Source of the DNA: an uncultured Bacteroidales bacterium | GTDB lineage: Bacteria; Bacteroidota; Bacteroidia; Bacteroidales; Bacteroidaceae | Direction of reading: 5' to 3' | NCBI GenBank assembly: GCA_902800925.1 | Contig: CADCGD010000003.1 | Span: forward strand, 1 to 64,000 | DNA: 64,000 bases | Shown: positions 7,986 through 63,747 of the stretch, one piece after another | Numbering within the stretch: the first letter of the stretch is position 1 | Layout of the letters: each line of letters starts with the position of its first letter | Notes under the pieces: generated by a model | Seen by the model: only the letters and a program-made list of their open reading frames with translations | The model's database searches: none | Told to the model about the DNA's origin: nothing | Made by a program: the position numbers and the translations under genes

Positions 7986-7997
7986 AGTTTTTCTTTT

Positions 7998-8044
7998 TTC
8001 GATATTACGATATTTCGAAGTTTCGATATTTCGATGTTTCGAAG
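7998..8044. repeat. Degenerate simple-sequence tract between ftsA and ftsZ
   Basis: The junction is filled by variants of the 8-9 bp words CGATATTT and CGAAGTTT. Similar but differently worded tracts lie at other junctions in the window (11651-11677, 15411-15474, 16757-16795, 25703-25755). Confidence 0.7.
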
Positions 8045-8046
8045 TG

Positions 8047-25705: not shown

Positions 25706-25755
25706 TATCGGAATATCGTTACATCGAAATATCGAAATCTCGAAACATCGAAAAA
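25703..25755. repeat. Simple-sequence tract before the PqqD-like gene
   Basis: Words of the form AATATCG / ACATCGA / AAATCTCG fill the 61-bp gap. The tract resembles the one between ftsA and ftsZ (inverse-complement word CGATATT). No small precursor ORF fits in this gap. Confidence 0.6.
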
Positions 25756-44996: not shown

Positions 44997-46163
44997 TTAT
45001 ATATCAATAACATCCGTCTCGTCGGTAGAAATCCAGCGTTCAAAACCACTTTCATCATCCGATGTCACGAGGAAGTTCTCGTCAATAATGAGATTGGCCT
45101 CAATATCGATAGTACCATGCCGCTTATGTCTGATGGCATGGAGACCGTCTTCGGTCAACTCATAAAGGTTAGCGCGGCGGATGGGATAATATAGGTTCAC
45201 CTTGCCACGAATAGGCATGCTTCGGTTTTTCACGAAAATCATCACCTGCAGGATGCCAGGACCATAGGTCACCTTTTCATCGGGAGCATTGACGACACTC
45301 AGCACGTCAATGGTTCCATGGCATTCAAGTTCCGTATTCTTATTAGTGTCCTTTATTCTTTTGCCTGTAGCATCGCGGAAGTGATTCTTGTAGAGCATCT
45401 TACAAGTCTCAGTGACATCAATGTAGCCGTTAGCCAGATTGACACGACAAGGGATGCCTGATATCTCGGTATAGACACTGTCTATGATGAAGGGAACGAC
45501 ATCCACTTTCTTGTGGATATGGAACTTCACGTCAATATTCTGCGACAGCAGATTAGGCTTGAATACATAGTTCGATAAATCTTGATCATCCACACGGATG
45601 GGCGTGATGGAGTCATAATAGATGGGGGTAATGTCTGGCTGTATATAGTTGGCACTGCTGCCATAATTGTTATAGTCTTTCCAATAACTGATTGTTCCAC
45701 GCAACTCGGGGTCGTCATAGCTATAGCGCTTATACTCTATATTCAGGTCAGACACCTGCTTGTCGCCATCGTCAGTGCGTATATAGTTGTCGATGTCATC
45801 ATAGATGAACTCCTTGTCATCACGGTTGAATGCCAACAGCTTATAGATGCCGCTACGCAGTCTGAACTCAGTGGTCTTACCCTCAGGCAGTTCCTCGGGA
45901 GCATTCCACAGGTAGTAACCCTCTGCCTTATAAGAGTCCAGCTGAATCAGGCACTTCCACGTACCAACGATACGTTTAGCCAGCACATTCATCGTGTCGG
46001 GCACGGTGTGCACGTACTCGTCAGACGTCGCATTAACCCAATTGAAGCTAAACATCGTGGAGATACGATGTGGGTGCTCTGTTTCTTCACAGAGCTCCGT
46101 TTGGGTGCAGGCAACCAGCAGCACCACCAACGGAAGGAAATATCGGATGGCGCTATGATTCAT
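44997..46163 (-). CDS. FimB/Mfa2-like fimbrial anchor lipoprotein
   Basis: A 388-residue lipoprotein when started at ATG 46163, where the signal peptide and lipobox appear (MNHSAIRYFLPLVVLLVAC, Cys19). A longer frame upstream encodes only a Lys/Arg/Pro-rich shadow of the previous gene. The mature protein (TWKCLIQLDSYK..., YKLLAFNRDDKEFIYDD, VNLYYPIRRANLYELT) resembles the FimB/Mfa2 and DUF5119 group, which anchors fimbriae to the outer membrane and regulates length. The start overlaps the DUF3575 gene by 11 bp. Confidence 0.75.
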   Translation of the reverse strand: MNHSAIRYFLPLVVLLVACTQTELCEETEHPHRISTMFSFNWVNATSDEYVHTVPDTMNVLAKRIVGTWKCLIQLDSYKAEGYYLWNAPEELPEGKTTEFRLRSGIYKLLAFNRDDKEFIYDDIDNYIRTDDGDKQVSDLNIEYKRYSYDDPELRGTISYWKDYNNYGSSANYIQPDITPIYYDSITPIRVDDQDLSNYVFKPNLLSQNIDVKFHIHKKVDVVPFIIDSVYTEISGIPCRVNLANGYIDVTETCKMLYKNHFRDATGKRIKDTNKNTELECHGTIDVLSVVNAPDEKVTYGPGILQVMIFVKNRSMPIRGKVNLYYPIRRANLYELTEDGLHAIRHKRHGTIDIEANLIIDENFLVTSDDESGFERWISTDETDVIDI

Positions 46164-47211
46164 CTTTCGCTTCTTTTTTAGACTTTTTAGGTTTGGGGGC
46201 CTTCTTGGGCTTTTCGGACTTTTCTGCCTTCTTAGGCTTTTCTTCCTTTTTGGGTTTTTCGATCTTTTCGGCCTTCTTGGGCTTTTGGACAGGCTCCGAA
46301 GCTGGAAGAACTTTAACCAGCGAGTCGTACTTCTGCCAGAACAGGTTGCGCACAACGGCTTCAATAGAGTCACTACGCTGCTTTTCAGCACGCTGAATAC
46401 GTCTGTTCATAATGATATCATCGAGACGCTGCTGATATGGTACATCCACATCGTAACGCCAACGGTATTTGCTAGTTATTGGATAATTGCCGAACCGATA
46501 GACAAAACCTATACGCAAATCATTAATGACTGGCATGACCGTCGTCTGCTGACGCGCTACTATCGGATAACAGTCATCCTGCGGATCATGACGGAAGGTG
46601 TCGTAGTTGGCAAAGGCCACTCCAATGGCAGTACCCAGTTCGAAGTCGAGTGTGTTGCCATTGGCAAAAGCATACATCGGACGGATGATGCCAAACAGCA
46701 GACCGCCTATCAGGGCTGAACCCTGGCGGCCCTCATCTCCGAACTTCAACGAGAAATTATTATAGGCCACGAAAGCACCACGATAATAGGTTGTCGTAGG
46801 ATGTTTGGAAACAGCCCGACGGGGAGACACCCAACGCTCCCACTTATGTTCCTTGGGGACGATATATTTCCCGTCAAGCAGTCTAATGCGGTAGTAGTTG
46901 CGAACCTCTGCACGCACCTCAGCGACATTGTAGACCACACCAGGTTTGAAGGTGTGACTCGACTGCCAGTTAGCACGGAGGTTCAGTCCCACGGCCCAAC
47001 GGTTCCAGTTGTAGCGACGAAGGTCGAATTCCACACCAATATTCGGCACCAGCAACAGCCAGTCAACCGCATTAGTACGGAATGACACCCTTTCCTTCAT
47101 GGAAAGTGTATCAACCTTGTGACCTGTATCCATTCTCTGAGCCAACAACGACTCAGATAGAAATAGTAGTACGCACAGCCAGCAATATATTAGTAGTACA
47201 TGATTTCTCAT
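46153..47211 (-). CDS. DUF3575-type protein with Lys/Pro-rich tail
   Basis: A 352-residue protein (start at ATG 47211; a longer frame begins upstream of the signal sequence). The signal peptide is MRNHVLLIYCWLCVLLF. SFRTNAVDWLLLVPNIGVEF is the typical DUF3575 beginning, and several beta strands follow to about 245. After a helical linker, a terminal part of about 50 residues consists of repeated PKK, EK and KPK motifs and ends KKEAKDES. This tail may contact the negatively charged envelope or cell wall. It is the first gene of the operon. Confidence 0.78.
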   Translation of the reverse strand: MRNHVLLIYCWLCVLLFLSESLLAQRMDTGHKVDTLSMKERVSFRTNAVDWLLLVPNIGVEFDLRRYNWNRWAVGLNLRANWQSSHTFKPGVVYNVAEVRAEVRNYYRIRLLDGKYIVPKEHKWERWVSPRRAVSKHPTTTYYRGAFVAYNNFSLKFGDEGRQGSALIGGLLFGIIRPMYAFANGNTLDFELGTAIGVAFANYDTFRHDPQDDCYPIVARQQTTVMPVINDLRIGFVYRFGNYPITSKYRWRYDVDVPYQQRLDDIIMNRRIQRAEKQRSDSIEAVVRNLFWQKYDSLVKVLPASEPVQKPKKAEKIEKPKKEEKPKKAEKSEKPKKAPKPKKSKKEAKDES

Positions 47212-47259
47212 ATATATTACCACCAAGTTACTCCCCAGCAGGGTTAGTAGATAGCGCGG

Positions 47260-47292
47260 CAAGGGTAAACATTATTTTTGAAATCACCAAAA
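47260..47292 (-). promoter_or_regulatory. Candidate promoter of the fimbria operon
   Basis: On the minus strand a TTTTG box (47288-47292) lies 20 bp from TACCCTTG (47260-47267), which differs from TAnnTTTG in one base. Transcription would begin near 47252, about 40 bp before the ATG at 47211. The stretch between is otherwise free of genes. Confidence 0.45.
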
Positions 47293-47325
47293 TAAAAATG
47301 ATAAAAATTTTGCAACACATCTTTT

Positions 47326-47417
47326 AGTATGTCGTAAAGACTAAGACACAGAACGTTGTAACTTGCTGTATTTTCATCACTTACAACGCTCTTGAAAGAT
47401 TCTTTTTACGACATACT
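47326..47417. repeat. Nested inverted repeat in the divergent regulatory region
   Basis: The outer arms are AGTATGTCGTAAAGA (47326-47340) and TCTTTTTACGACATACT (47401-47417; same sequence with two extra T). An inner pair CGTTGTAA (47354-47361) and TTACAACG (47381-47388) lies between. The motif TACGACAT is repeated 10 bp later. It separates the promoter of the fimbria operon from that of the accessory cassette. Confidence 0.75.
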
Positions 47418-47424
47418 ACGACAT

Positions 47425-47456
47425 TTTTGATGACTTACCGATACTTCATACCTTTG
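47425..47456 (+). promoter_or_regulatory. Promoter of the M15 peptidase cassette
   Basis: TTTTG at 47425-47429 and TACCTTTG at 47449-47456 with a 19-bp spacer is a textbook Bacteroidetes primary-sigma promoter. The ATG lies at 47512, leaving a leader of about 50 bases. Confidence 0.75.
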
Positions 47457-47511
47457 CATCGTCAATCTGGCCAGATAGACGATATGTTCAACAATTAATA
47501 AAGGAAAACGT

Positions 47512-47955
47512 ATGAAGACAATTGATTTAAATACAAAGCTCACGGAGAACTTCCGACTGGGTGAATTCATAGAAAGTGAGACGGCCCGCCGTCTGGGTAT
47601 TGACAACACACCGCAGCTGTGGGACGTGGTGGTACACCTGCGCCAATTGTGCCGCGAGGTGCTGCAGCCACTGCGCGACCACGTCGGCCACCCCATCCGC
47701 ATCAACAGCGGCTACCGCTGTGAACTGCTCAACAAAGCAGTCCATGGCGTGGAGAACTCGCAACATCTGTATGGCTGTGCGGCCGATCTGCATGTCCCGG
47801 ACCTGGACACGGCACGCAAGTGGTACTATTGGATAGTGAACCACCTGGACTTCGACCAGTGCATCCTGGAACATAACCGTCGCGGTGCCTTCTGGATACA
47901 TGTCAGCTACCGACCCGACTACCATGACAACCGCCACCAATCCTGGTTCTACTAA
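47512..47955 (+). CDS. M15-type D-Ala-D-Ala carboxypeptidase-like protein
   Basis: A 147-residue cytoplasmic-looking protein with no signal peptide. The zinc-binding motif SQHLYGCAADLH (H and D) and the later WIHVSY (H) match the M15A peptidase group of phage-like endolysins and carboxypeptidases. LGEFIESETARRLGIDN begins the fold. It leads an accessory cassette with a zinc-ribbon protein, a VirE-like protein and an HU-like protein, an association I know from many Bacteroidales genomes; the role of such a cassette is not established. Confidence 0.85.
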   Translation: MKTIDLNTKLTENFRLGEFIESETARRLGIDNTPQLWDVVVHLRQLCREVLQPLRDHVGHPIRINSGYRCELLNKAVHGVENSQHLYGCAADLHVPDLDTARKWYYWIVNHLDFDQCILEHNRRGAFWIHVSYRPDYHDNRHQSWFY

Positions 47956-47998
47956 ATGCGCCATTTATTTTCTAAGGAACCTAGGAATCAAGGAATAG

Positions 47999-48196
47999 AT
48001 GAGACGACGTGATGAAGGAAAGCGACAGGCGACAAGCCTCGTCTGTCGCTGCTGCGGACAGGAGCTGCCCGTCAGCAAGTTCCGTCGCTATCCCACGGGG
48101 ACCTACCGCCACACCTGCAACCACTGCTACTGGCTGCACCACGGCCAACCCACCCGCATGAGACGGATACTACGCGAACTGGAAGAGAGAGAATGA
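47999..48196 (+). CDS. Small Cys4 zinc-ribbon protein
   Basis: A 65-residue basic protein with CRCCGQEL and CNHCYWLHH, giving four cysteines in CxxC pairs and likely one zinc ion. The remainder is rich in Arg. It sits between the M15 peptidase and the 21-bp repeat array. A DNA- or RNA-binding role is plausible. No named family was recognised. Confidence 0.65.
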   Translation: MRRRDEGKRQATSLVCRCCGQELPVSKFRRYPTGTYRHTCNHCYWLHHGQPTRMRRILRELEERE

Positions 48197-48323
48197 AAAA
48201 ATGCTTTCACCTTTCACCAACCTGGCGCAAAGCACGATAGAATAAGGGGTTGCGGGCAGGCGCGCGGCGCGCAGACGTTCCACGAAGGTTTCACCAAGCA
48301 TTCACTCAGCCTAAGCCAATACT
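48197..48323. other. Non-coding stretch before the 21-bp array
   Basis: No gene seen. It includes GCGCGC-G-GCGCGC (48260-48272), a GC palindrome, and two copies of a TTTCACCAA word (near 48214 and 48290). Confidence 0.4.
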
Positions 48324-48512
48324 GAGACAGCCCACCCCACTGACGAGACAGCTGTAGGCAGCAGAAAACGGTGAGCGTTTTGGGCAAAACGGTGAGCGCT
48401 TTTCGGAAAACGGTGAGCGTTTTTCCACGAGACAGCTATTCCCACAGATGAGACAGCTGTAGCCACAGACAAGACAGTTGTTCCTACTATTAGGACAGCT
48501 GTAGAGATGAAG
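48324..48512. repeat. Nine-unit array of phased 21-bp repeats (iteron-like)
   Basis: Units start exactly every 21 bp at 48324, 48345, 48366, 48387, 48408, 48429, 48450, 48471 and 48492. Units 1-2 and 6-9 begin with the word (G/A)(A/G)GACAGCTGT or close variants (GACAGCTG at five, GACAGTTG or GACAGCCC at the others). Units 3-5 begin instead with AAACGGTGAGCG and are flanked by short AAAACG/CGTTTT arms. So the pattern is A-A-B-B-B-A-A-A-A in a constant frame of two helical turns. It ends 25 bp before the VirE-like gene. No spacers, so it is not CRISPR. Each reading frame contains stops. Confidence 0.9.
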
Positions 48513-48537
48513 TAATCAGTTATTAAAATGTAGAATT

Positions 48538-50607
48538 ATGAAACAGATAACAATCAGATACCGCAAGAGCGGCAAGACAATAGAGAAAACGATGAGCGTA
48601 AGCGAGTTTCACCAACTGCTTACAAGTGAAAAATATGTACGCCACGTGCGCGCGTTGCGTGCCATCGTGGGTACGGGAATCAATATGGGTACGGGCGACA
48701 TCCCAGAAGCCGACCGACTACCAGAGGTGCATGTCGCAGTAGGAGCATCAGGATATAGCGGACTGCTCATGTTGAGCCTGACCATCACCGACCGAACTCC
48801 TCCGCTAGAGACTATGCGACACATCGTCGACATATTACCGCAGACTATCATGTCGTTTATCGGTTCTTCCGGTCGGACGTTGAAGGTGCTGACCAGCGTG
48901 TCACTTCCCGACGGTACGCTACCCACCGACACTCACGAGGCAGAACTGTTGCACCAGCACGCATGGGCAATGGCTGCAAAGTTTTACGAGGGACAGACAG
49001 GCATTGCCTGCGACCGTGTGGCACCACGTCTGCTGCGCGGCATACGACTCAGCTATGACCCCTCTGCACAGCTGAACACCCATGCTGTTGCATTCGTCTT
49101 AGAACAGCCTGCAGAACCACTGGCCATAAGCTTGCGCCGACGCCGGACAGCAATACCAACGATGACCATAGACCGACTGCCAGACTATGACGAACAGCAC
49201 ATGCAGATGACGCGCTTCCAGTTCTGTTATGCAGACATCATGAGTCGTAACTACGAAGAACTGGACGTCATGATGCAGGAGCTGGCCCGCAAGGCGATGA
49301 AGAACGGACTGGACGCAGAATTCTGCATCCACAGGCTGATGCACATGCACCAGTACAAGGACTACGAGATATTGGTGCGCCGTACTTTCCGTAACGTCTA
49401 TGGCATCTGTTTCCGTCATCCCGAGCGTATGAATAGCCCCAAAGAGAGTGCCTTGCCGCACTACACGCTCCAGATGGCCTTGCTGTGTCACTTCATGGAG
49501 CAACGCTACCTGCTGCGTCGTAACATGATTACTGACGGCATCGAATACATCGAACGGGGATCCGTCTGTTTCGATTGGCAACCACTACGCAAGGAGGACA
49601 TCAATAGCATTACCATGCAGGCATTGATGGAGGGTATTGAGGCATGGGATAAAGATGTTAAACGTTACGTCGAATCTTCCCATGTGATGACGTATGACCC
49701 TATCGCAGACTTCCTGAATGAGTTGCCACAATGGGACGGCATAGACCGCATCAGCGAGTTGGCACGTCGGGTACCTGTTGACAATCCCTCGTGGCCAGAA
49801 GACTTTGCTGTCTGGATGCGTGCCATGATGGCCCAATGGCTCCACCGCAACATACTGCATGGTAATGCCATGGTGCCATTGCTCATCGGTGCTCAAGGCG
49901 ACGGTAAGTCAACGTTCTGCCGCCGTCTTCTACCTGACGAACTGGCAGATTACTATACCGATCGCATAGACTTTGCCAACCGGAACGTAGCAGAACGCAT
50001 GCTGACACGCTTCTGTCTGATTAATATTGACGAGTACGACAGCCTGTCACACCAGCAGGGAGCCTTCTTGAAACACGTGCTACAGAAAGCAGATGTAAAA
50101 ACGCGCAAGTTGTATGACTCACAGATTCTCAACCGACAGCGTTACGCAACCTTCATCGCTACCACCAACGACCCTACCCCACTGACTGACTCGACAGGTT
50201 CTCGCCGTTTTATGTGTTTGCAACTTACAGGGCGCATTGACAATGAGAGTCCCATCAATCATCCGCAACTTTACGCACAGGTTAAGGCAGAACTGGATGC
50301 AGGACTGCCGTCGTGGTTCGACCATGAGCGTGAACAGCGCATTCAACAGCAGAACATCAACTTCCAGTTGCATGACAGCATGGAGGAAATCTTCTGCGAG
50401 ATGTTTCGGAAGCCAGCAGACAAAGAGGAAGAGATGCTCATGAGCGCTGCACAGATCTTGTCTGCCATGAAGAAACGCTACGTCAGTGTAAAGACAGACA
50501 ACTGTTGGGTTCAGCGACTCTCGAAGATGCTGGTCAGGAAACAGTTCGAACGTCACCACACCAACAGCAAGAATCTCTTTCGTGTAAGCCTGGTGGAAGG
50601 GAAGTGA
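48538..50607 (+). CDS. VirE/primase-helicase-like protein (VirE_N plus P-loop ATPase)
   Basis: A 689-residue cytoplasmic protein. The first about 220 residues (LRAIVGTGINMGTGD..., VAVGASGYSGLLML) fit the VirE N-terminal domain, with a middle linker. The C-terminal half carries a VapE-like ATPase with Walker A GAQGDGKST (451-459), INIDEYD (Walker B) and IATTNDPTPLTDSTGSRRF (sensor/Arg finger), as in superfamily-III-like helicases of mobile elements. So it probably acts on DNA. Directly upstream is the phased repeat array, which could be the site it binds. The end of the gene is followed by a hairpin and an HU-like gene. Confidence 0.82.
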   Translation: MKQITIRYRKSGKTIEKTMSVSEFHQLLTSEKYVRHVRALRAIVGTGINMGTGDIPEADRLPEVHVAVGASGYSGLLMLSLTITDRTPPLETMRHIVDILPQTIMSFIGSSGRTLKVLTSVSLPDGTLPTDTHEAELLHQHAWAMAAKFYEGQTGIACDRVAPRLLRGIRLSYDPSAQLNTHAVAFVLEQPAEPLAISLRRRRTAIPTMTIDRLPDYDEQHMQMTRFQFCYADIMSRNYEELDVMMQELARKAMKNGLDAEFCIHRLMHMHQYKDYEILVRRTFRNVYGICFRHPERMNSPKESALPHYTLQMALLCHFMEQRYLLRRNMITDGIEYIERGSVCFDWQPLRKEDINSITMQALMEGIEAWDKDVKRYVESSHVMTYDPIADFLNELPQWDGIDRISELARRVPVDNPSWPEDFAVWMRAMMAQWLHRNILHGNAMVPLLIGAQGDGKSTFCRRLLPDELADYYTDRIDFANRNVAERMLTRFCLINIDEYDSLSHQQGAFLKHVLQKADVKTRKLYDSQILNRQRYATFIATTNDPTPLTDSTGSRRFMCLQLTGRIDNESPINHPQLYAQVKAELDAGLPSWFDHEREQRIQQQNINFQLHDSMEEIFCEMFRKPADKEEEMLMSAAQILSAMKKRYVSVKTDNCWVQRLSKMLVRKQFERHHTNSKNLFRVSLVEGK

Positions 50608-50616
50608 AAGGGACAG

Positions 50617-50633
50617 CAGCGGCCTTGCCGCTG
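50617..50633. repeat. Short perfect palindrome after the VirE-like gene
   Basis: Arms CAGCGGC / GCCGCTG with loop CTT, 9 bp after the stop at 50607. Without a T-run it is not a simple terminator. Its build (7-bp arms, 3-base loop ending TT) resembles the palindromes near the RAYT gene. Confidence 0.65.
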
Positions 50634-50677
50634 TAACCTTCAGAATAACAAATATTTACAACAAAAAGTGAAACGTG

Positions 50678-51055
50678 ATGGCAATTTTTTATAGACTAGT
50701 TAGAGATGAGCGAAAGGACTCGCCCTACAAAGGAATGTATTTCGCAAGGGCCGTCAACCTCGGCACGATAGAGACCGACGAGTTGGCGCGCATCATTGAG
50801 CGCAACTGTAGTGTGAAACGCAGCGATGTGCTAGCCGTGCTGGCAGAGCTGAGCGATACCATCCGCCTGCTGCTGGCCGACTCGCACCGTGTGCGCATTG
50901 CCGGCATCGGCTCGCTGATGGTGGGCCTCAACGGTCGCCCGTGCAGCGACCCCACCAAGTATACCAACGACCACATCACCGGTCTGCACCTCTGCTTCAA
51001 ACCGGAAAAGGAGCAACGCCTGACCGATGCCGACGTTGCTCCCTTGCCTCCGTAA
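50678..51055 (+). CDS. HU/IHF-like DNA-binding protein
   Basis: A 125-residue protein beginning at ATG 50678 (a GTG three bases earlier is possible). The HU fold is seen in LARIIERNCSVKRSDVLAVLAEL (helices) and the strand RVRIAGIGSLMVGLNG, equal to the ARxGxF-like region of HU. The arm (RPCSDPTKYTNDHITGLHLCFKPE) is of the HU-like type common in Bacteroidetes accessory loci. It would bend DNA, perhaps with the repeat array of the same cassette. Confidence 0.82.
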   Translation: MAIFYRLVRDERKDSPYKGMYFARAVNLGTIETDELARIIERNCSVKRSDVLAVLAELSDTIRLLLADSHRVRIAGIGSLMVGLNGRPCSDPTKYTNDHITGLHLCFKPEKEQRLTDADVAPLPP

Positions 51056-51067
51056 TATGTTATATGC

Positions 51068-51409
51068 TTAAGCAGCCTCGTAGATGTAGTTGCGAAACAT
51101 GCTGTCCTTGCTCTGTTCTGTGGCGTCAATATCGATGCTCTGTAGGGGCGAAACGGCTATCAGGTTGTTGGAATAGCGTGTAAGGTAGTTGATGCCCTCG
51201 ACGGTGCTGATGCTACCATCGGTAGGCAGCGAGCGCACCACCTCCGACAGGAACTCGTATTCCTTCGGAGAAAACAGACCGCGCACGGCCTCCAGCTTCT
51301 GCTGCGAATAGCGCACGTCTACCTTGTCGCCATCGACAAATATTAGCCCAAGGCTGACACGCTCGGAAATCTCGGGGCGGATAACCGCGTAAATGATGCT
51401 GTATTTCAT
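51068..51409 (-). CDS. DUF3037-like partner of the HipA-like kinase
   Basis: A 113-residue cytoplasmic protein (start at ATG 51409; a longer frame overlaps the kinase gene). The beginning MKYSIIYAVIRPEISERVSLGLIFVDGDK fits DUF3037 in its first 30 residues (quoted here in two parts for reading: MKYSIIYAVIRPEISER, then VSLGLIFVDG). The gene begins one base after the kinase stop, so the pair is translationally linked. DUF3037 is commonly encoded with HipA-like kinases. Its action is unknown: it might act as substrate, inhibitor or cofactor. Confidence 0.72.
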   Translation of the reverse strand: MKYSIIYAVIRPEISERVSLGLIFVDGDKVDVRYSQQKLEAVRGLFSPKEYEFLSEVVRSLPTDGSISTVEGINYLTRYSNNLIAVSPLQSIDIDATEQSKDSMFRNYIYEAA

Positions 51410-51410
51410 A

Positions 51411-52211
51411 TTAACCAATGTTTTCGTTAAGACAATCCACAAAATTCTGCCAGACAGCTGCTGTCCAATGTTTGTCGGATAGCTGGTTCAGCTTTTCCTT
51501 GAGAGTTTCTGCTGGTACTTTCCATTCTTTCGGCATCTCATCCATAATCTCTTCAGCGGCGACGCTGATCTGGCTGAGATATTCATCATAGTCGGCCTTC
51601 AGGCGATCGGCCAAAGTGAGCACCATCTGGCGGTCTGCTACCTGAACCAGATGGTGGAACAGGTCCGACCACAGAATAGTGTCTGTCGAAGTGAGTTGTG
51701 ATAGTGGGTATTCAAATGTTGCCGTGTTGAAGATGCAACCATAGTCGATGGATACCAACTGCTCGCGAGCCACGTTGTACATCAGGTTCGCATTATTTGC
51801 GTTGCGGTCCTCATTAGCCACCCAGAAGTCGAACAGTGCAATCTTCATCAGTTGGGCCAGCGTCTCAGCATTTGCGGGAACCTTGGAATAGGTAGAGGGC
51901 GTGATGTCGACCACGCTGTCCAACCAGCGGAAGCCTATCGATGGGGCAGAGAGGCTGTGAGATATGCTGATACCCTCCCAATGCGCAGGGCGAATAGTTA
52001 CGAGAGCAATGTCGGGCGTTGTCAGGTGCCAAGCCTTAGCCAGCTTTGCTCCAATAAACTCGCAGGCCAGTTTGTAAGCTGTAGCAGACGATCGCATGTA
52101 TTTGCAGACGTAGATATTTACGTCTGAACACATCACCATCACCGGTTCTTCGCCAGTGTGGAACTGCTGTTCTATTCGCTTGGCGCTGTATAGGGTTTGC
52201 ATTGCCATCAT
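51411..52211 (-). CDS. HipA-like kinase (HipA_2 type)
   Basis: A 266-residue protein (numbering from ATG 52211). The phosphatidylinositol-kinase-like fold is indicated by a Lys in YVCKYMRSS, the catalytic segment WVANEDRNANNANLMY (Asp and Asn spaced as in HipA) and the metal-binding DYG in SIDYGC. Longer frames begin inside the -7 box, so the start at 52211 or the ATG at 52202 is preferred. It is followed at once by the DUF3037 partner. True HipA kinases act as toxins with HipB. No HipB-like helix-turn-helix gene is seen here, so a simple toxin-antitoxin role is uncertain. Confidence 0.75.
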   Translation of the reverse strand: MMAMQTLYSAKRIEQQFHTGEEPVMVMCSDVNIYVCKYMRSSATAYKLACEFIGAKLAKAWHLTTPDIALVTIRPAHWEGISISHSLSAPSIGFRWLDSVVDITPSTYSKVPANAETLAQLMKIALFDFWVANEDRNANNANLMYNVAREQLVSIDYGCIFNTATFEYPLSQLTSTDTILWSDLFHHLVQVADRQMVLTLADRLKADYDEYLSQISVAAEEIMDEMPKEWKVPAETLKEKLNQLSDKHWTAAVWQNFVDCLNENIG

Positions 52212-52244
52212 CTTGTCTTCTTGGTTACACACGCTTTCACGCTG

Positions 52245-52252
52245 CAAATATA
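52245..52252 (-). promoter_or_regulatory. Probable -7 box of the HipA-like kinase operon
   Basis: TATATTTG on the minus strand is a perfect TAnnTTTG, placed 34 bp before the ATG at 52211. This is the reason to reject an ATG at 52247 as start. A -33 box at 19-20 bp is not obvious. Confidence 0.5.
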
Positions 52253-52417
52253 CAACAATTTTCCGAAAGTTCTTCTTTCTTTAACATATAATTATCATCT
52301 AATCGTCCATTAATTTCTCATTAATGAATAATTATATGGCCCATTATATGGTCATTACATGTTCAAGGAAATCCCAGAAAAAGATATTAAAATGACACGC
52401 GAGTCATTATGAGTACA
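52253..52417. other. Non-coding gap with short tandem repeat and palindrome
   Basis: No gene seen. ATTATATGG occurs twice close together (about 52331-52352). AATGAC-ACGCGA-GTCATT (52391-52408) is an inverted repeat that may act as terminator or operator 3' of the esterase gene. Confidence 0.45.
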
Positions 52418-53725
52418 TTATCTTTTATTTGCCAATATCCAGTCCAACTGCTGGCGATTGGTGACGTTGCTGGTCCAGTGCTCGTTGACGGGGGTGATGA
52501 GGCTTTCCTTCTCACACTTCAGCAGGTTCCAGACAGCATAACTCGTGGTGGGCGGACAGGTATTGTCGTTATAGCCCCACGTCATGTAGGTCTTGGCCTT
52601 GATGTAAGGTGCAAAACAGCAGACATCAAAGTAGGGCAACGTCTGCAAGTGTTGGGGAGTGAGGAATCCTTCGGCTTTTGAGAAGTGAGGATAGCCGTGG
52701 GTACGGCCTTCCTCGGCGGCTGCCGCCATATCACTGAGTGCGGGGTGGTTGGCCACACAGAGCGTCACACGAGGATCGAGGGCTGCGGCGATGAGCGACA
52801 AGGCGCCACCCTGACTGCCACCTTGGGCAATGACGTTCTTGCCGTCCCATTCAGGCAACGAGCAGAGGAAGTCGATGCAACGGACAAGGCCCAGATAGAC
52901 GTGCTTCATATAATAATGGTCACGACTGTCGATGCCCTGATAGAGATAGCCCTTCTCACGACCATCGAAAGCAGAGCGCACGTCGTTGAAATAAGACTCA
53001 GGCATCAGCGGGTTCATACCATGTATCTCGGTGATGAAGCGGATGACGCCGTTCTCCGGATAGTAGTCGCGCGAATTGGGTTCCTTGATGGTCTTCACAC
53101 CAGCCCCTGGGGGACAAAGCACAACGGGGTGGCTGCCTGCCTTAGCGTTCTTCGGCATCATCAGCAGGCCGTAGAGTATCTGGTGCTGACGGTTCAGGTC
53201 CAGGCGCACGAGGTAGCAGTCGGTCTTGTCGGTGGTAAACTCCGGACAGGGTGTCTTCGTGAACTTCAGCGGATACTGGGCCGCCTCCTTCAGGTTGTCC
53301 TGCCAGAACTGCCAGAAGTCCTTTGGCTCCTTGGTGTAGGGCACAATCTTCTCGGGCGAGAAGCCAATCTTCACGTGATGCTGATAGGTGGTTCCATCGA
53401 GCTTCATCGTCAGACGGATGTCGCGGAAGCAAGGCTTCTTTGCAGTCCCCGCTTTGATGACAGCGCGCCCGTTCTTCAACGTGACAGTACCCTTGGTGTC
53501 GGTTTCCATCAGGTCATTGCCGATGGCATACTCCACCACACCGTCACGCGGTATACCGTACTTATAGAATTGTACCTCGACCGTGGCCTGCTCGCCCGTC
53601 TTGTAAAGCCAGTCGGCATGATTGGGAACGGTCACCCACAGATAGTCACTGCGATAAGGATAGTTTTCTGCGTGAAGACTAACAAGTCCCAGCAGACAGA
53701 TAATAATTGCAAGTAGTCGTTTCAT
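52418..53725 (-). CDS. Secreted CE7 acetyl-esterase (acetylxylan/cephalosporin-C deacetylase type)
   Basis: A 435-residue alpha/beta hydrolase with signal peptide (MKRLLAIIICLLGLVSLHAE), start at ATG 53725; the frame continues upstream across the -7 box, so the long start is rejected. The catalytic motif GGSQGG holds the nucleophile Ser; YNDNTCPP provides Asp and NEHW His. An extra N-terminal beta domain (residues about 22-140, EVQFYKYGIPRDGV) precedes the esterase. Family members remove acetyl groups from xylan or xylo-oligosaccharides. The nearby GH31 enzyme at 56664-58841 would fit plant-polysaccharide use. Confidence 0.88.
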   Translation of the reverse strand: MKRLLAIIICLLGLVSLHAENYPYRSDYLWVTVPNHADWLYKTGEQATVEVQFYKYGIPRDGVVEYAIGNDLMETDTKGTVTLKNGRAVIKAGTAKKPCFRDIRLTMKLDGTTYQHHVKIGFSPEKIVPYTKEPKDFWQFWQDNLKEAAQYPLKFTKTPCPEFTTDKTDCYLVRLDLNRQHQILYGLLMMPKNAKAGSHPVVLCPPGAGVKTIKEPNSRDYYPENGVIRFITEIHGMNPLMPESYFNDVRSAFDGREKGYLYQGIDSRDHYYMKHVYLGLVRCIDFLCSLPEWDGKNVIAQGGSQGGALSLIAAALDPRVTLCVANHPALSDMAAAAEEGRTHGYPHFSKAEGFLTPQHLQTLPYFDVCCFAPYIKAKTYMTWGYNDNTCPPTTSYAVWNLLKCEKESLITPVNEHWTSNVTNRQQLDWILANKR

Positions 53726-56663: not shown

Positions 56664-58841
56664 TCATTGTTCCAGTTCGAAGACGGGAATGAAGGTCTTG
56701 TCAATCTGTGTGGTGACAGTCTGTCCACCAGCATAATACTTGCCGCTATGGCGGTCGCGCCAGCGTCCACGGGTCTTGGGCAAGTAGGTCTTCCACTCGG
56801 TGGCATCGGGCTCAGTGACGGGACTGATGAGCAGCTTGGGACCGAACATATACTCATACTTCTGAGCCAGTGCCTCAGGGTCGTCGGCAAAGTCGAAGAC
56901 CAGCGGACGCATCAGCGTATAGCCCTCGGTGCTGACACGACGGGCACACTCCTCGATATAGGGGCGCAGGGCCTCGCGCTCCTTGATGCAGTTGGCAATG
57001 GCGGCTTGTGCCTCCTTGCCGTAGTTCCACGGCTCTGTATTGCTCATATAGCCATGAACACGCATCAGGGGCAGATAGACAGACAACTCTATCCAGCGCA
57101 GCATGCGGTCGATATATGCCTGGTCTTGATACTGGTTCTGCGGACGGAAGAAGCCTCCGGCATCGTACGTCCACCAAGGCATGCCGGCAGCCTGTACACC
57201 CAGTCCAGCAGTAATCTGGCGGCGCAGCGTCTCCCAGTCGTTGCCCACATCACCGCTCCATACGGCAGCACCATAGCGCTGGATGCCTGGATAAGCACAA
57301 CGTGTCAGGATGAAGGGCTCCTGCTGACCGCACGCCTTCAGACCCTCATAGACGGTCTTGTTGACGAGCAGGGGGAACACGTTACGTACCGCATTGCCAC
57401 GCCAGCGACCGTTGTTGACCATGCGTCCTGCCAGGTCGTCGTTCTCAGGCTCCGTGGCATCCTGCCACCAGGCATCGATGCCCAGCGGTACGAGGCGCTC
57501 GGCAAAGTTCTTCCAGTAGGCGGCAGCAGCATCGGGATTGAAGAAGTCTATCCAGTCGGTATTAGGGATATAGTAGTTGTTGGCGAGCATCTGTTTGCCC
57601 ACCTCTGAGTTCTTGTCTATCTTCGACCATACGCTGACCATGAAGCGGATGCCCATATGGTGCAGATAGTCGGTGAGTGCCTTGGGGTCGGGGTAGTTGT
57701 CTTCATCGAAGCGCATGGCGTTCCACCCGTATTTGCCCCAATACTGCCAGTCTTGTACCAGCATACCTACAGGGATGCGCTCCTTCTTGAAGCGGTTGGC
57801 GGTCTGCAGGATCTCGTCGGACGAGTGGAAGCGCTCACGGCAGTGGATATAGCCCAGTGCCCAAGAGGGCATAGGAGCACAGGGACCCGTCAGCTCGCGG
57901 TAGGTGGCTATTACCTCGTCGGCAGAACCGACGAACACCGTGTAGTCCACCTTGGCAGCCACGGGCGAGCGGAACGTCGTCTCGTCCTTCACCAAATGGT
58001 AATAGAGCACGGGCTTATCATCCTTGGTGAGCTCTGACGTCAGCTGGTGCTTGCCAGCTTTCAGATGCACGATGGCTGAACTCGTTGGTGGCAGCCAAAG
58101 GTTCTGCATGTCCATCACCTTCTTGCCGTCAATCTCCAGATCATGGCGACGAGCCATCTGCTGACCCACATCAAGCAGCAGGGAATAGTCGCCCTCCTTG
58201 GCAATCTGCAACTCAGCACTGAAGATGTTACGCTGGCGCATCTCCTTCTTGCCGCCCTCGGTAGTGGTGATGTTGACAACCTCAGAGGTGAGAGGTGAGT
58301 GGTTAGAGGTTAGCGGTAAGAGTGCTACGCTCTCGCTGCTGGGGTTAAACTCCGACATGCCGTAGTTATTCCACAGCACACCATAGCCCTTGCTCGACAG
58401 CACCATCGGCAGCGAGATCTGTGTGTTGACCTGTGTCAGACGGCGCGACAGTCCACGGACATTGGTATAGCCATCCTGGAACTGTCCCAGGCCATAGAGA
58501 TATTCATCCTTCGGCGATTTGAAGGTCAGCGTAGCCTGTTCGCCCTGCATGTCGTGGCGTGTGGCAGTGAATACCACACGACCCTGGCGGTCTTTCACCT
58601 GTAGCAGCTGGCGCTTCTTGTCAATCTTGACGGTGATATCGTGGTCGGCAACCTCGTCGGTCTTCACATAGCTCCAGTCGGGGAGCTGTTCGGGCAGTAC
58701 CCCACCCTCGTCATACTGGATGCGGACGGCATTGCGGGCTACATACTTCACGGTCAGTTGTCCCTTGCCGAAGGGTACGGTCTCTGCCCATGCCCACTGC
58801 ATGGCAATGAGCATGATAGTTGATAAGAATAGTCGTTTCAT
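56664..58841 (-). CDS. GH31 alpha-glycosidase (alpha-xylosidase/glucosidase type)
   Basis: A 725-residue secreted enzyme with signal peptide (MKRLFLSTIMLIAMQWAWAE). The nucleophile Asp461 lies in WWQDATEP, and the acid/base Asp531 is expected in WSGDVGND. An insert at about 205-295 (ELQIAKEGDYSLLLD...) resembles a PA14 domain, as in alpha-xylosidases of this family, so alpha-xylosidase activity on xyloglucan fragments is the favourite. Residues 174-188 (ALLPLTSNHSPLTSEV) are encoded by a 7-bp simple repeat and seem an insertion in a loop. It could act with the CE7 esterase on plant glycans. Confidence 0.88.
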   Translation of the reverse strand: MKRLFLSTIMLIAMQWAWAETVPFGKGQLTVKYVARNAVRIQYDEGGVLPEQLPDWSYVKTDEVADHDITVKIDKKRQLLQVKDRQGRVVFTATRHDMQGEQATLTFKSPKDEYLYGLGQFQDGYTNVRGLSRRLTQVNTQISLPMVLSSKGYGVLWNNYGMSEFNPSSESVALLPLTSNHSPLTSEVVNITTTEGGKKEMRQRNIFSAELQIAKEGDYSLLLDVGQQMARRHDLEIDGKKVMDMQNLWLPPTSSAIVHLKAGKHQLTSELTKDDKPVLYYHLVKDETTFRSPVAAKVDYTVFVGSADEVIATYRELTGPCAPMPSWALGYIHCRERFHSSDEILQTANRFKKERIPVGMLVQDWQYWGKYGWNAMRFDEDNYPDPKALTDYLHHMGIRFMVSVWSKIDKNSEVGKQMLANNYYIPNTDWIDFFNPDAAAAYWKNFAERLVPLGIDAWWQDATEPENDDLAGRMVNNGRWRGNAVRNVFPLLVNKTVYEGLKACGQQEPFILTRCAYPGIQRYGAAVWSGDVGNDWETLRRQITAGLGVQAAGMPWWTYDAGGFFRPQNQYQDQAYIDRMLRWIELSVYLPLMRVHGYMSNTEPWNYGKEAQAAIANCIKEREALRPYIEECARRVSTEGYTLMRPLVFDFADDPEALAQKYEYMFGPKLLISPVTEPDATEWKTYLPKTRGRWRDRHSGKYYAGGQTVTTQIDKTFIPVFELEQ
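58283..58320. repeat. 7-bp simple repeat inside the GH31 coding sequence
   Basis: Read on the coding strand: CTAACCT, CTAACCA, CTCACCT, CTCACCT, CTGAGGT in tandem. It encodes about 13 residues in frame, after a loop of the N-terminal domain. The same style of unit fills intergenic gaps elsewhere in this window. Confidence 0.75.
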
Positions 58842-58873
58842 TGTCTAATGAAGTTAGTCATATTAAGTTAGTG

Positions 58874-59350
58874 TTATTCTTTCCAAAGGCGATAGGGGTT
58901 CCTGCGCAGCTGACTATTATAGTAGCGTCGGTCGCCAGTGACCTCCTTCCCGATGAAATGGGGGATTACTGGTTGTTCGTCTTGCGATTGCAGCTCAACT
59001 TCGGCCATGACAAGCCCCTCGTTGTCGCCAAAGAACTCGTCGACTTCGAAGACATGGTCACCACTCTTGACGAGCCAGCGAACCTTGTCAATGAGACCAG
59101 GCTCACAGAGTGTCATCAACTGTCTGGCATCGTCGAGCGGTATCTCGTATTCGAATTCAGCCCGTGCCAGACCACCATCTTCCGAGGGGCCCTTGATGGT
59201 CACATAGGCATGCTCATCCCTGATGCGGATGCGCACGGTACGACCACGCTCGCTACAGATATACCCCTGACAGATGTGGCTTTTTGAAAAAGCCTCGTGC
59301 TTGTACGAGTCGTCAAGCACGAGGAACTTACGTTCAATCTCCAGCGCCAT
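58874..59350 (-). CDS. CYTH-domain protein (inorganic triphosphatase-like)
   Basis: A 158-residue cytoplasmic protein. The ExExK motif EIERK (Glu4, Glu6, Lys8) begins the triphosphate tunnel, and YICSERGRTVRIRIRDE and YVTIKGPS follow in the right order. Family members hydrolyse tripolyphosphate or related triphosphates. Length fits. It stands alone, bordered by simple-repeat tracts on its 5' side. Confidence 0.88.
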   Translation of the reverse strand: MALEIERKFLVLDDSYKHEAFSKSHICQGYICSERGRTVRIRIRDEHAYVTIKGPSEDGGLARAEFEYEIPLDDARQLMTLCEPGLIDKVRWLVKSGDHVFEVDEFFGDNEGLVMAEVELQSQDEQPVIPHFIGKEVTGDRRYYNSQLRRNPYRLWKE

Positions 59351-59362
59351 AATGACTGTTGA

Positions 59363-59510
59363 ATTTGGAATGTTGAATGATGAGTGTGGAATGAGGAATG
59401 TGGAGTGTGGAATGGTCGCCTACGGCGATTATCAATGAAGAATTGAGAATTCTACATTCAAACATCGCAGCGATGCGAGAATCATTCAACATTCAACACT
59501 CCACATTCTT
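59363..59510. repeat. Simple-sequence tracts with two tiny-loop palindromes
   Basis: Variants of GAATGTTGAATG / GAGTGTGGAATG run left to right, then appear as reverse complements (CATTCAACATTC) to the right. Two palindromes interrupt them: TCGCC-TAC-GGCGA (59416-59428) and CATCGC-A-GCGATG (59463-59475). No gene fits. The whole tract fills the gap between the CYTH gene and the small membrane protein. Confidence 0.8.
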
Positions 59511-59518
59511 CATACCCA

Positions 59519-59662
59519 TTACGCCATCATTGAGAAGGTCCAGATGAGGTAGATAACGGCCAGTACGATGAGTGAGCCGAAAATCCATGCTACGACTTTC
59601 TTTCCCTTTTCTTCTTCCTTCTTAGCGTAAGCTTCGCGCTTTGCATTTACTTTCTTGTTCAT
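59519..59662 (-). CDS. 47-residue membrane protein
   Basis: Starts at ATG 59662 and ends TAA at 59519. The product begins MNKKVNAKREAYAKKEEEKG, a highly charged stretch of about 22 residues, then a single hydrophobic helix (VVAWIFGSLIVLAVIYLIW) and a short tail TFSMMA. The charged first part and the clear membrane segment argue for a real gene. It lies between two simple-repeat tracts and has its own neighbourhood. Function unknown. I saw no homologue by eye. Confidence 0.6.
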   Translation of the reverse strand: MNKKVNAKREAYAKKEEEKGKKVVAWIFGSLIVLAVIYLIWTFSMMA

Positions 59663-59679
59663 AGTTATCTAAATTTTGA

Positions 59680-59732
59680 ATGTTGATTTTTGAATGTTGA
59701 CTGGTCGGCTTTGCCGATGATTCATTTATGAA
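59680..59732. repeat. Simple-sequence tract with palindrome TCGGC-TTT-GCCGA
   Basis: TGAATGTTGA words lie to the left and TGAATTATTCA-like words to the right of the palindrome at 59705-59717. It occupies the gap before the S23-type gene and extends to its stop. Confidence 0.7.
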
Positions 59733-60116
59733 TTATTCAATGACAATCTCTTTATCCAGATTAAATCTTGATGTTTTAGTAATTGAAACCAGTAAACGCT
59801 TTAACTCTTCACAATCATCATGAATTGATTGATACTGTTCAGGTTTAAGATGACCTGTTTTTTTTAACAAATCAATCCAGAAGAGACTCTCATTACATTC
59901 TTTTAATGAAATGTATACTTTTGCGATAAAATCCTTTTTTGTTATAGCACATTGGGCCTCAGCCATATTGGCACCTATACTTGTGCCACTGCGGAATAGT
60001 TGATCTGAGATTTTGTATTCGTGCCTTTCGTCAATAAGGAATTTACATAAATTGACAATACGTATTGCAAAATTCATGCATTTTTCTTCCATTATCTTTC
60101 CGAAATCACTCATCAT
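59733..60116 (-). CDS. Four-helix-bundle protein, S23 (rRNA intervening sequence) type
   Basis: A 127-residue protein. The conserved QLFRSGTSIGANMAEAQ and the helices IAKVYISLKECNESLFWIDLL are the signature of the S23/IVP family. Members are encoded within 23S rRNA intervening sequences or as free genes. They form four-helix bundles and are thought to bind nucleic acid or other proteins. A related copy is at 61383-61769, on the other side of prfB. No rRNA is near. Confidence 0.85.
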   Translation of the reverse strand: MMSDFGKIMEEKCMNFAIRIVNLCKFLIDERHEYKISDQLFRSGTSIGANMAEAQCAITKKDFIAKVYISLKECNESLFWIDLLKKTGHLKPEQYQSIHDDCEELKRLLVSITKTSRFNLDKEIVIE

Positions 60117-60148
60117 TCTTCATTTTTACATTGCGCTTGCGCAATCAT
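60117..60148. repeat. Simple-sequence tract with palindrome ATTGCGC-TT-GCGCAAT
   Basis: Palindrome 60130-60145 (inner arms TTGCGC / GCGCAA at 60131-60144) between CATTC-type words. It fills the gap between the S23-type gene and prfB. Confidence 0.7.
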
Positions 60149-61273
60149 TCAACATTCCACATTCTCCATTCCAAATTCCATGAGGTAAGCCTTGATGAAA
60201 TCGTCGATTTTGCCATTCATCACGCCATCGACATCACTGGTCTGGTAGTTGGTACGATGGTCCTTGACACGACGGTCGTCGAAGACATAGGAACGAATCT
60301 GTGAGCCCCACTCAATCTTCTTCTTGCCAGCCTCTATCTTGGCTTGAGCCTCCAAGCGCTTCTGCATGGCACGGTCGTAGAGTTGTGAGCGCAGCAGCGC
60401 CATAGCACGCTCCTTGTTCTTTGGCTGGTCACGCGTCTCGGTATTCTCGATGAGGATCTCCTCTTCCTCGCCAGTGTCAGGGTCGGTATACCAGTAGCGC
60501 AGACGGACACCCGACTCCACCTTGTTGACGTTCTGACCACCGGCACCAGAGCTGCGGAAGGTATCCCACGACAGCTTGGCAGGGTCGACATACACCTCGA
60601 TGGTGTCATCGACGAGCGGGGTCACGAAGACAGAGGCAAAGCTCGTCATGCGCTTGCCCTGGGCATTATAGGGACTGACACGTACCAGACGGTGTACGCC
60701 ATTCTCACTCTTCAGGTAGCCATAGGCATATTCGCCACCTTCTATCTGCATGGTGACGCTCTTGATGCCTGCCTCATCCCCATCCTGCAGGTTGGCGATG
60801 CTGACCTTATAGCCATGAGCCTCTGCCCAGCGCTGGTACATACGCATCAGCATCTGTGCCCAGTCCTGTGCCTCGGTACCTCCCGCACCGGAGTTGATTT
60901 TCAGGACACACTCCATGGGGTCTTCCTGCTGGCGCAGCATATTCTTCAACTCCAACGACTCAATAGCCTCGATGGCCTTCTGGTAGTTGGCATCGACCTC
61001 TTGCTCGGTGACCATCTCTTCCTTATAGAAGTCGAAAGCCAACTGCAACTCGTCGGCAGCAGTACGTACGTCCTGGTAGCCGTCGAGCCACTTCTTGATG
61101 GCCTTGACTTTCTTCATCTGCTCCTCGGCACGTTTCTGGTCTTCCCAGAAGTCGGGAGCCTGTGTACGAAGGTCTTCTTCTTCGTACTCCATCTTCTTCT
61201 CGTCTATCTTCAAGTACTTGTACAATGCATCCGCACGGTCAAGCACGTCTTTCAATTGATCCTGAGTAATCAT
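60149..61273 (-). CDS. prfB: Peptide chain release factor 2
   Basis: A 374-residue factor that reads stop codons UGA and UAA. The GGQ loop (SSGAGGQNVNKVES) is at 245-247. The codon-recognition tripeptide, SPF in E. coli, is SPY at 200-202. It is encoded in one uninterrupted frame, so there is no programmed +1 frameshift at the usual place near codon 26. The GAGGTEAQDWA motif in the middle is as expected. Gene is flanked by S23-type genes on both sides. Confidence 0.96.
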   Translation of the reverse strand: MITQDQLKDVLDRADALYKYLKIDEKKMEYEEEDLRTQAPDFWEDQKRAEEQMKKVKAIKKWLDGYQDVRTAADELQLAFDFYKEEMVTEQEVDANYQKAIEAIESLELKNMLRQQEDPMECVLKINSGAGGTEAQDWAQMLMRMYQRWAEAHGYKVSIANLQDGDEAGIKSVTMQIEGGEYAYGYLKSENGVHRLVRVSPYNAQGKRMTSFASVFVTPLVDDTIEVYVDPAKLSWDTFRSSGAGGQNVNKVESGVRLRYWYTDPDTGEEEEILIENTETRDQPKNKERAMALLRSQLYDRAMQKRLEAQAKIEAGKKKIEWGSQIRSYVFDDRRVKDHRTNYQTSDVDGVMNGKIDDFIKAYLMEFGMENVEC

Positions 61274-61382
61274 ATTATTTTAAATTAGAAATGAGAAGTG
61301 AGAAATGAAAAATGTAAATGAAGAAATGCAATAATGCCCTATGGTGCATTTTGTATGCACAAAGCACAAGCATGACTTCTTT
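61274..61382. repeat. Simple-sequence tract between the S23 gene and prfB
   Basis: GAAATGAGAAGTGAGAAATG-type words (61284-61325) are followed by a palindrome GTGCAT-TTTGT-ATGCAC (61344-61360). No gene seen. Confidence 0.6.
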
Positions 61383-61769
61383 CTACTTCTTATCTCCATC
61401 ATTTCGTAAATTCTCTTTTGTTGTTTTTGTTATCGATGTTAATATACTTATTATTTCTTCATTGTCATCTATAATTGAAGCAAACTCCTTGTCATTAAGA
61501 GAGCCATAAGAGTGTAGTCGTTTCAACCAATAGCGTGTTTCATTCGCTTCTTTCAAAGCAATGGTCATCTTCGTCAGAAAATCGGGCTTCGTCTGGGCAA
61601 ATTGCCCTTCCGAGACATTTGCACCTATGCTTGTTCCGCTCCTAACAATTTGCTTCAGCATGTCTTTATCACCCTGTCGCTTTTCAGACAGATAGCGATA
61701 CATTTTTGTGATTCTATCAGCAAACTTATCCGTCTTTTCAATGATGATATTTTCTCGCGGTACAGCCAT
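61383..61769 (-). CDS. Four-helix-bundle protein, S23 type (second copy)
   Basis: A 128-residue protein (start ATG 61769; an upstream ATG at 61784 would take five residues from a simple-repeat tract). KQIVRSGTSIGANVSEGQFAQ is the S23 motif, with the next helix FLTKMTIALKEANETRYWLK. It is a paralogue of the gene at 59733-60116 and ends with a Lys/Asp-rich tail. Confidence 0.85.
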   Translation of the reverse strand: MAVPRENIIIEKTDKFADRITKMYRYLSEKRQGDKDMLKQIVRSGTSIGANVSEGQFAQTKPDFLTKMTIALKEANETRYWLKRLHSYGSLNDKEFASIIDDNEEIISILTSITKTTKENLRNDGDKK

Positions 61770-61770
61770 T

Positions 61771-61836
61771 CCGTCATTTCTCATTTAGGGCCGTGGCCCG
61801 TCATTTCTCATTTCTCACTTCTCATTTCTCATTTGG
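61771..61836. repeat. Simple-sequence tract with palindrome GGGCC-GT-GGCCC
   Basis: The word CGTCATTTCTCATTT appears on both sides of the palindrome (61788-61799). Several TTTCTCA / TTCTCAC units follow. It fills the gap between the acyl-CoA ligase stop and the S23 gene. Confidence 0.75.
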
Positions 61837-61838
61837 AA

Positions 61839-63647: not shown

Positions 63648-63673
63648 AACACTCTATATTTATTAATTAGGTG

Positions 63674-63705
63674 CAAAGGTAGTGCAAATCGAGCGAAATA
63701 CCAAA
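63674..63705 (-). promoter_or_regulatory. Promoter of the acyl-CoA ligase gene
   Basis: On the minus strand TTTG (63702-63705) and TACCTTTG (63674-63681) with a 20-bp spacer, 27 bp before the ATG at 63647. Confidence 0.7.
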
Positions 63706-63747
63706 GAAAAATTAAGAATAAAGAGTTAAGAATTAAGAATTATTTTT

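Follow-up and report, generated by a model that had tools for sequence, protein, structure and literature searches.

What is the function of a strictly phased repeat array directly in front of a VapE-type gene? This question is raised by a locus in an uncultured Bacteroidales bacterium of the family Bacteroidaceae (assembly GCA_902800925.1, below G000 or the own genome), of which we analyzed one stretch of 64,000 nucleotides (contig CADCGD010000003.1, below C3, positions 1 to 64,000), referred to as the window. On balance, we judge it probable that the nine repeats are the central cis-acting control site of a small mobile element residing in the chromosomes of gut Prevotella-type bacteria and that the VapE-type product acts on this site; we put this no higher mainly because no joining enzyme was recognized in the unit. 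The element is laid out as an inverted end, an array of phased palindromes, the VapE-type gene, a mirrored end and usually an HU gene.

The array extends from 48324 to 48512 (+ strand) and consists of nine 21-bp units in the order A-A-B-B-B-A-A-A-A. Units start at 48324+21k (k=0 to 8), the last one ends at 48512, and the total length is 189 bp. Direct reading and two repeat finders thus bore out the number, the exact 21-bp step and the order of units given in the original prediction, which had also assigned a core sequence to either unit type. This assignment holds for the three B units (48366-48428, +), which are of the AAACGGTGAGCGTTTT type and contain AAACGGTGAGCG in all three cases, but not uniformly for the A units: GACAGCTGT is exact in three of six (48347, 48452 and 48494), and the other three read GACAGCCCA, GACAGCTAT and GACAGTTGT. 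By eye, A is near-palindromic around ACAGCTGT, and B is near-palindromic in the form AAAACG-GTGAG-CGTTTT. The period-21 self-match reaches 41/63 in the best 63-bp stretch upstream of the gene. A chance origin of the array was rejected, given that none of 200 shuffles scored as high and that period 21 or 22 recurs in 24 of 54 VapE upstream regions (see below). A known structured RNA was rejected as well, since no Rfam family reached its gathering score within 46000-52500.

The gene behind the array (48538-50607, +) encodes 689 amino acids with a PF08800 primase-like N-terminal domain, a PF05272 VapE-like ATPase domain and DUF3874. It is a member of the BT4734/BF3469 family (PF08800 plus PF05272), both domains scoring above their curated Pfam cut-offs (74.2 bits versus 22.4 and 97.2 versus 25, respectively). 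In the alignment of VapE proteins, Walker A (GxQGxxKS/T) and Walker B (DEY/FD) are retained by eye. BT4734-like proteins are listed among the archaeo-eukaryotic primase families, which have the motifs hhhDhD/E, sxH and hD/E (PMC5862659, in excerpt). Among 35 aligned VapE proteins, the first acidic column of motif I holds S in 20, E in 12 and T, R and A in one each, and the second holds neither D nor E in any. The acidic pair is therefore absent in 35 of 35, with one acidic residue retained in 12. A motif-II-like GRH with H in the aligned column was seen by eye in three of the 35 (L198, L238 and L057), and the window protein has GRT. Because the acidic pair of motif I is absent, primase activity seems unlikely from the alignment, more clearly so for the window type than for the 12 proteins that retain one Glu. 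The sole solved chain found was 7pds, "Similar to D. nodosus vapE" (E 7e-6). We rejected a known defence gene, for which PADLOC gave a PrimPol model and a weak GajB match (E 0.003), as well as a viral gene: no relative was confirmed with the window protein among viral contigs, and the 42 matching phage records are all below 60% identity. Matching plasmid records, which annotate VapE relatives as BT4734/BF3469 family, numbered 17 for the VapE of the sister subgroup described below, likewise all below 60% identity.

Array and gene lie between two inverted ends. The left end (48196-48305, +) comprises an A-tract, CTTTCACCTTTCAC, a stem and GACGTTCCAC followed by TTTCAC and ATTCAC, its inner border at 48305 being set by judgement and not computed. 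The right end (50608-50690, -) lies between the VapE and HU genes, with its left border placed by judgement at the VapE stop codon. We scored both ends with a weight matrix built from 16 end sequences of short gene-less copies (minis) in the own genome and one related metagenome-assembled genome (MAG); 18 sequences had been taken, two were skipped for different spacing, and the window was excluded. Scores of at least 25.7 bits occur at 3 of 127,960 window positions, namely 31.2 bits at 48198 (+; motif 48198-48218), 29.0 bits at 124 (-) and 25.7 bits at 50667 (-; motif 50667-50687, overlapping the HU start codon), compared to 16.9 for the next best position and 18.7 for the best of 30 shuffled windows. 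Because only these three positions reach 25.7 bits, the VapE gene is bracketed by inverted ends. The third motif (124-144) is near the start of contig C3, which seems to truncate another element of the same family. Plain alignment of left with right end was not significant for the window (0.14 of null) or for genome G106 (0.08 of null), so that both end pairs rest on the scan with the weight matrix and on the agreement in layout. The VapE of G106 is 58% identical to that of the window, and its locus has the same order: M15 peptidase, Cys-rich protein, end, array with a B' centre (see below), VapE, end and HU. Other short-period repeats in the window include 7-bp-period arrays at 58284-63742 (AGAGGTG, TGTGGAA, CATTCCA, AAATGAG, TCATTTC and AATTAAG), which resemble heptamer pairs at element ends, and 8-bp-period arrays at 7997-8045 and 25700-25753, TTTCGATA and TCGAAATA, which are mutual reverse complements.

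As for the neighbouring genes, the HU-HIG family DNA-binding protein gene (50678-51055, +; ATG at 50678) follows the right end, and in sister units homology stops at or near the stop codon of the HU gene. In the two-gene unit of G157, only VapE and HU exceed 80 amino acids. On the left, the gene for an M15 peptidase, endolysin-like by PHROGs (47512-47955, +), is perhaps part of the unit in the window's subgroup, because similarity to G106 begins about 105 bp ahead of it. The gene of a 65-aa Cys-rich protein, zinc-ribbon-like by eye (47999-48196, +), abuts the left end with its stop codon; the protein had no match in Pfam, PHROGs or NCBIfam. In tblastn searches with the window proteins, 9 of 40 VapE loci had the Cys-rich gene nearby and 8 of 40 the M15 gene; for the majority of these loci, flanks of only 1.5 kb were available, and some loci repeat one place. 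No integrase was present among the seven window proteins scanned (about 46-52 kb). Directly after the HU gene lie a HipA_2-like kinase gene and a 124-aa neighbour (51068-52247, -), possibly a toxin-antitoxin-type pair.

In the own genome, the B unit had 14 matches with at most two mismatches, compared to one for the reversed control. B triplets lie at four places (the window, C5:16177, C8:5313 and C11:33372), and single weaker B matches at C6 and C15 sit in other sequence. All four triplets are inside inverted-end pairs, those of the window VapE unit and of three minis without VapE, which measure 400, 463 and 452 bp end to end between mirrored AAAAAAATGCYTTCACCTTTCAC-type ends. A sister centre termed B' (AAGTGGTACGACTTT type, 20-bp steps) forms triplets at nine further places, and by eye A-type units surround most B and B' centres. 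One of the nine B' triplets (C4) is inside an inverted-end pair, four (C5, C6, C34 and C37) are beside one and one (C30) is beside a single end. The other three (C8:25157, C22 and C28, or L053, L042 and L043, respectively) had no end in the stretch examined, those on C22 and C28 being close to the contig end. These B' arrays suggest that the array may travel or persist alone in places. A VapE gene follows only one of the 13 arrays of B or B' type dispersed in the own genome, and we therefore considered that the link to VapE might be incidental, a view overturned by the genus survey of VapE upstream regions. By eye, phased repeats lie upstream of each of the five VapE genes in the own genome; shuffles matched these arrays in 0 of 200 cases for the window, C12 and C24, in 1 of 200 for C1 and in 10 of 200 for C15.

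A VapE relative (E<=1e-40) was found in 112 of 200 genus genomes, the copies per genome being lower bounds here and in the subgroup survey, and the exact B-doublet pattern in 3 of 200. We scored as an array any 63-bp stretch with at least 36 matches within 500 bp upstream of the gene. The 24 of 54 upstream regions with period 21 or 22 (identical regions removed, close relatives kept) compare to one of 54 in which a different period (17 to 26) qualified; among 500-bp windows drawn at random from the context loci, such arrays included, 31 of 2000 qualified for period 21/22 and 22 of 2000 for the other periods. The remaining 30 regions had no contiguous 21/22-bp array by the period scan. Between VapE loci, unit sequence varies, and the array lies at widely differing distances from the start codon (about -30 to -470). 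Outside these genomes, the best period was 22 (35-48/63, without shuffles) in three Bacteroides/Parabacteroides records and two faecal contigs, or 5 of 59 matching records, and one of the five showed a left-right match score of 72. Many members of an EVNN-type VapE group (L201-L213) have arrays without a clear inverted repeat. In G024, the left-right match of five VapE loci (L226-L230) is weak (0.034-0.068 of null), and these blocks were excluded from the subgroup counts; four of the five loci share several-kb blocks at 88-96%, containing a Toprim/DnaB-like helicase, an M15 peptidase, a Cys-rich protein and VapE.

The layout is clearest in a sister subgroup, whose VapE query matched 29 of 398 genus genomes (E<=1e-170) at no fewer than 33 places. 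In an order-wide sample, one of 295 genomes matched (E<=1e-130), namely the own genome. We tested 32 of the 33 places, two of which had too little flank, leaving 30 testable loci; many of these elements are related, and the counts below are not independent. In 28 of the 30, left and right ends match in inverted orientation over 60 bp or more (67-127 bp), and two loci have no such match. The right copy begins 1-20 bp past the VapE stop codon, and the left copy lies between -403 and -110 of the start codon. Sixteen loci exceed 95% of 870 mispaired comparisons, a null drawn from the same subgroup and hence sharing its family resemblance. For the 28 elements, the summed score of own left and right ends is 3412, compared to 2059 for the best of 100,000 permutations; the own right end is the best match of the own left end in 21 of them, and relatives score better in seven. 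At least two palindromes precede the gene in 23 of 30 elements, and in 20 of these 23 every palindrome spacing is 21-21.5, 43-43.5 or 64-65 bp, the exceptions being L273, L277 and L282. An HU gene follows VapE in 27 of 32 loci and was not found behind it in L257, L261, L262, L264 and L248. Two elements, L260 and L261, match one and the same query at about 74% identity each, yet their array units differ. Such fast unit turnover is awkward for a strict pairing of VapE with its site; changing unit sequence together with constant phasing would fit co-evolving binding, or spacing and symmetry mattering over sequence.

A query of end plus array matched in 19 of 19 genomes, all chosen for carrying the subgroup VapE. 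G151 contains eight inverted pairs of 381-470 bp, too short for VapE. Seven of eight minis read have paired ends, L344 only in part, and L349 was mis-paired by the finder. In six of the seven, a pair of palindromes lies 65 bp apart, as in L260 of the same genome, and spacing is mixed in five minis of G385 and G260, with some values off a 21.6-bp ladder. These counts omit G034 and G205, for which the pair finder mostly chose other inverted repeats. L350 and L351 are identical over 525 of 526 bp in flanks without a match, and the copied unit extends about 45-50 bp past the inverted repeats on both sides, with no target-site duplication seen. In one Prevotellaceae MAG, three minis on three contigs agree in 382/392, 383/390 and 382/391 columns (about 98%); their left flanks share nothing, and on the right, an 89-bp repeat is common to one pair. 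The retention of ends and array in minis argues that these sequences are needed in cis.

Full units appear to have moved likewise. L255 (G157) and L256 (G260) share a 2897-bp stretch at 96.4% identity that reaches from the left repeat as far as the stop codon of HU, and their flanks of 1.17 and 0.99 kb gave no blastn or tblastx match. L250 (G051) and L281 (G000) are 95.1% identical over 2884 bp, and the one match between their flanks (227 bp on the right of L250) is 28 bp long and runs in opposite orientation. L258 (G296) and L268 (G051), the latter with a broken VapE frame and 314 bp of left flank, agree at 98.7 and 98.2% in two pieces and share one 22-residue tblastx match in the flanks. No gene is common to the outer flanks of any of these three pairs. 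L257 aligns to L255 from repeat to repeat only and is followed by a 395-aa frame. A 30-bp match to the HU gene directly behind its repeat suggests that HU was lost, which undercuts L257 as a unit that originally had no HU. The pairs L271/L272 and L278/L279 are similar into the right flank and thus uninformative on movement. By eye, no target-site duplication was seen among nine pairs, with the ends of three full-unit pairs sharp enough to judge. REP-like sequences (GGGACTG..., GGGGACT...) lie beside L099, L107, L250 and L350 by eye and may be preferred neighbourhoods of copies. Taken together, comparison of the copies shows near-identical units in unrelated flanks and gene-less copies that retain both ends and an array.

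The minis have general traits of MITEs, being short, gene-less and dispersed with inverted ends, and the alternative that survives best is that the family consists of ordinary MITEs. Minis and a passenger VapE gene would then be moved in trans by a transposase encoded elsewhere, the array being an embedded minisatellite as in BrickBuilt, the nearest described repeat. BrickBuilt and MITE464/PgRS of Porphyromonas gingivalis are, like the window element, dispersed intergenic Bacteroidales elements with inverted ends and internal repeats of about two helical turns (PMC4596501, in excerpt). BrickBuilt is a MITE with a minisatellite of 23-nt direct repeats (41-nt in PgRS) and 12-nt ends matching transposase elements of the IS5 family, ISPg1/ISPg9; many copies lack an end, both TIRs being present in 4 of 19, and duplications of differing length flank three of four complete copies (PMC4596501, in excerpt). 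The units described here have no recognized nuclease, and the own genome is 82.9% complete, so that a transposase could be missing from the assembly. In contrast to BrickBuilt, the window family has ends of about 67-127 bp and near-palindromic units of two kinds (20-22 bp), and its full units carry VapE, not a transposase. The BrickBuilt end GAGACCTTTGCA was not found at the element ends, with 6-8 of 12 positions at best near the ends of 13 elements scored. Moreover, VapE is the sole coding unit between the repeats found by the query in G151, no transposase was present among the frames read by eye at four single repeats in short gaps of this genome, and arrays also precede VapE genes without a detectable inverted repeat. 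We thus regard a MITE moved by a foreign transposase as unlikely.

The nearest working analogue of the locus is the pri-rep-ori segment of PICIs and SaPIs, in which, as in the window, a primase-like and helicase-type gene lies beside repeats, there forming the origin (PMC6092414, in excerpt). Accordingly, the array might be a strict replication origin, that is, an iteron origin serving a unit which leaves the chromosome and is copied as an episome, like PICIs and iteron plasmids, with integration as a separate step. The layout of a primase-like domain with a VapE-type ATPase, the match to 7pds and the PICI ori with iterons adjoining pri-rep (PMC6092414, in excerpt) speak for such an origin, which we nevertheless consider quite improbable. 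PICIs possess an integrase, attachment sites, a repressor and phage induction, and their origins lie 3' of rep, flanking an AT-rich stretch (PMC6092414, in excerpt), whereas the window array lies 5' of the gene and no integrase was seen among the neighbours scanned; by this comparison, the window element is not a PICI. In addition, the motif I acidic pair is missing throughout the aligned proteins, and the plasmid matches are all distant (<60% identity). An array that only regulates the VapE (and HU) genes as the operator of a repressor array is very unlikely, as minis without VapE retain it and its distance to the start codon varies by hundreds of base pairs, even though it sits before the gene and near-palindromic, phased sites suit dimeric repressors.

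The original prediction had placed the array in a mobile cassette before a VirE/VapE-like gene, a view supported by the ends, the dispersed units and the period survey. Its proposed search upstream of VirE-like genes elsewhere did reveal arrays in relatives, and the two-helical-turn phasing recurs in the genus survey as well as in the 20 of 23 subgroup elements. The proposal of an "origin-like or operator array" for the cassette thus pointed in the right direction. The bracketing inverted repeats and the gene-less copies bearing the array were absent from it. Its candidate binders, the zinc-ribbon and HU proteins, are weakened by the incomplete presence of their genes (near 9 of 40 and behind 27 of 32 loci, respectively), and VapE appears to be the better candidate.

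Under the favoured reading, in which the array is the control site of the mobile element, its binder would most likely be VapE itself. The primase-like domain, which lacks the acidic pair in a protein that retains its ATPase motifs, might serve as a DNA-binding module, and either this or the C-terminal domain could read the palindromes. VapE would assemble along one face of the DNA on palindromes spaced about 21.6 bp apart and melt or remodel the DNA, a role proposed for SaPI-type Rep/VapE helicases at their origins. It would thereby initiate copying or excision of the segment bounded by the ends, possibly assisted by DNA bending through HU. Ends and array would suffice in cis, with VapE supplied in trans. 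No nuclease or recombinase was recognized in the unit. A bolder proposal, to which we give somewhat less than even chances, is that of a new class of transposable element, in which a VapE ATPase with a primase domain devoid of the acidic pair acts on phased palindromes and mobilizes itself and minis between long inverted repeats without encoding a transposase, integrase or HUH nuclease. In the literature searched (mainly open-access, at title and abstract level), we found no account of these arrays, inverted repeats or minis, nor of a role of BT4734/VapE.

If BT4734/VapE genes drive mobile elements whose cis-acting sites can now be recognized, their function becomes open to direct test, and a family of repeats between the genes of these bacteria finds an explanation. 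Mobility of an element that lacks its own nuclease and is powered by a helicase whose primase domain is disabled would represent a new way to move DNA. In addition, the combination of strict 21-22-bp phasing with fast-changing units provides a natural series for the co-evolution of a protein array and its DNA sites.
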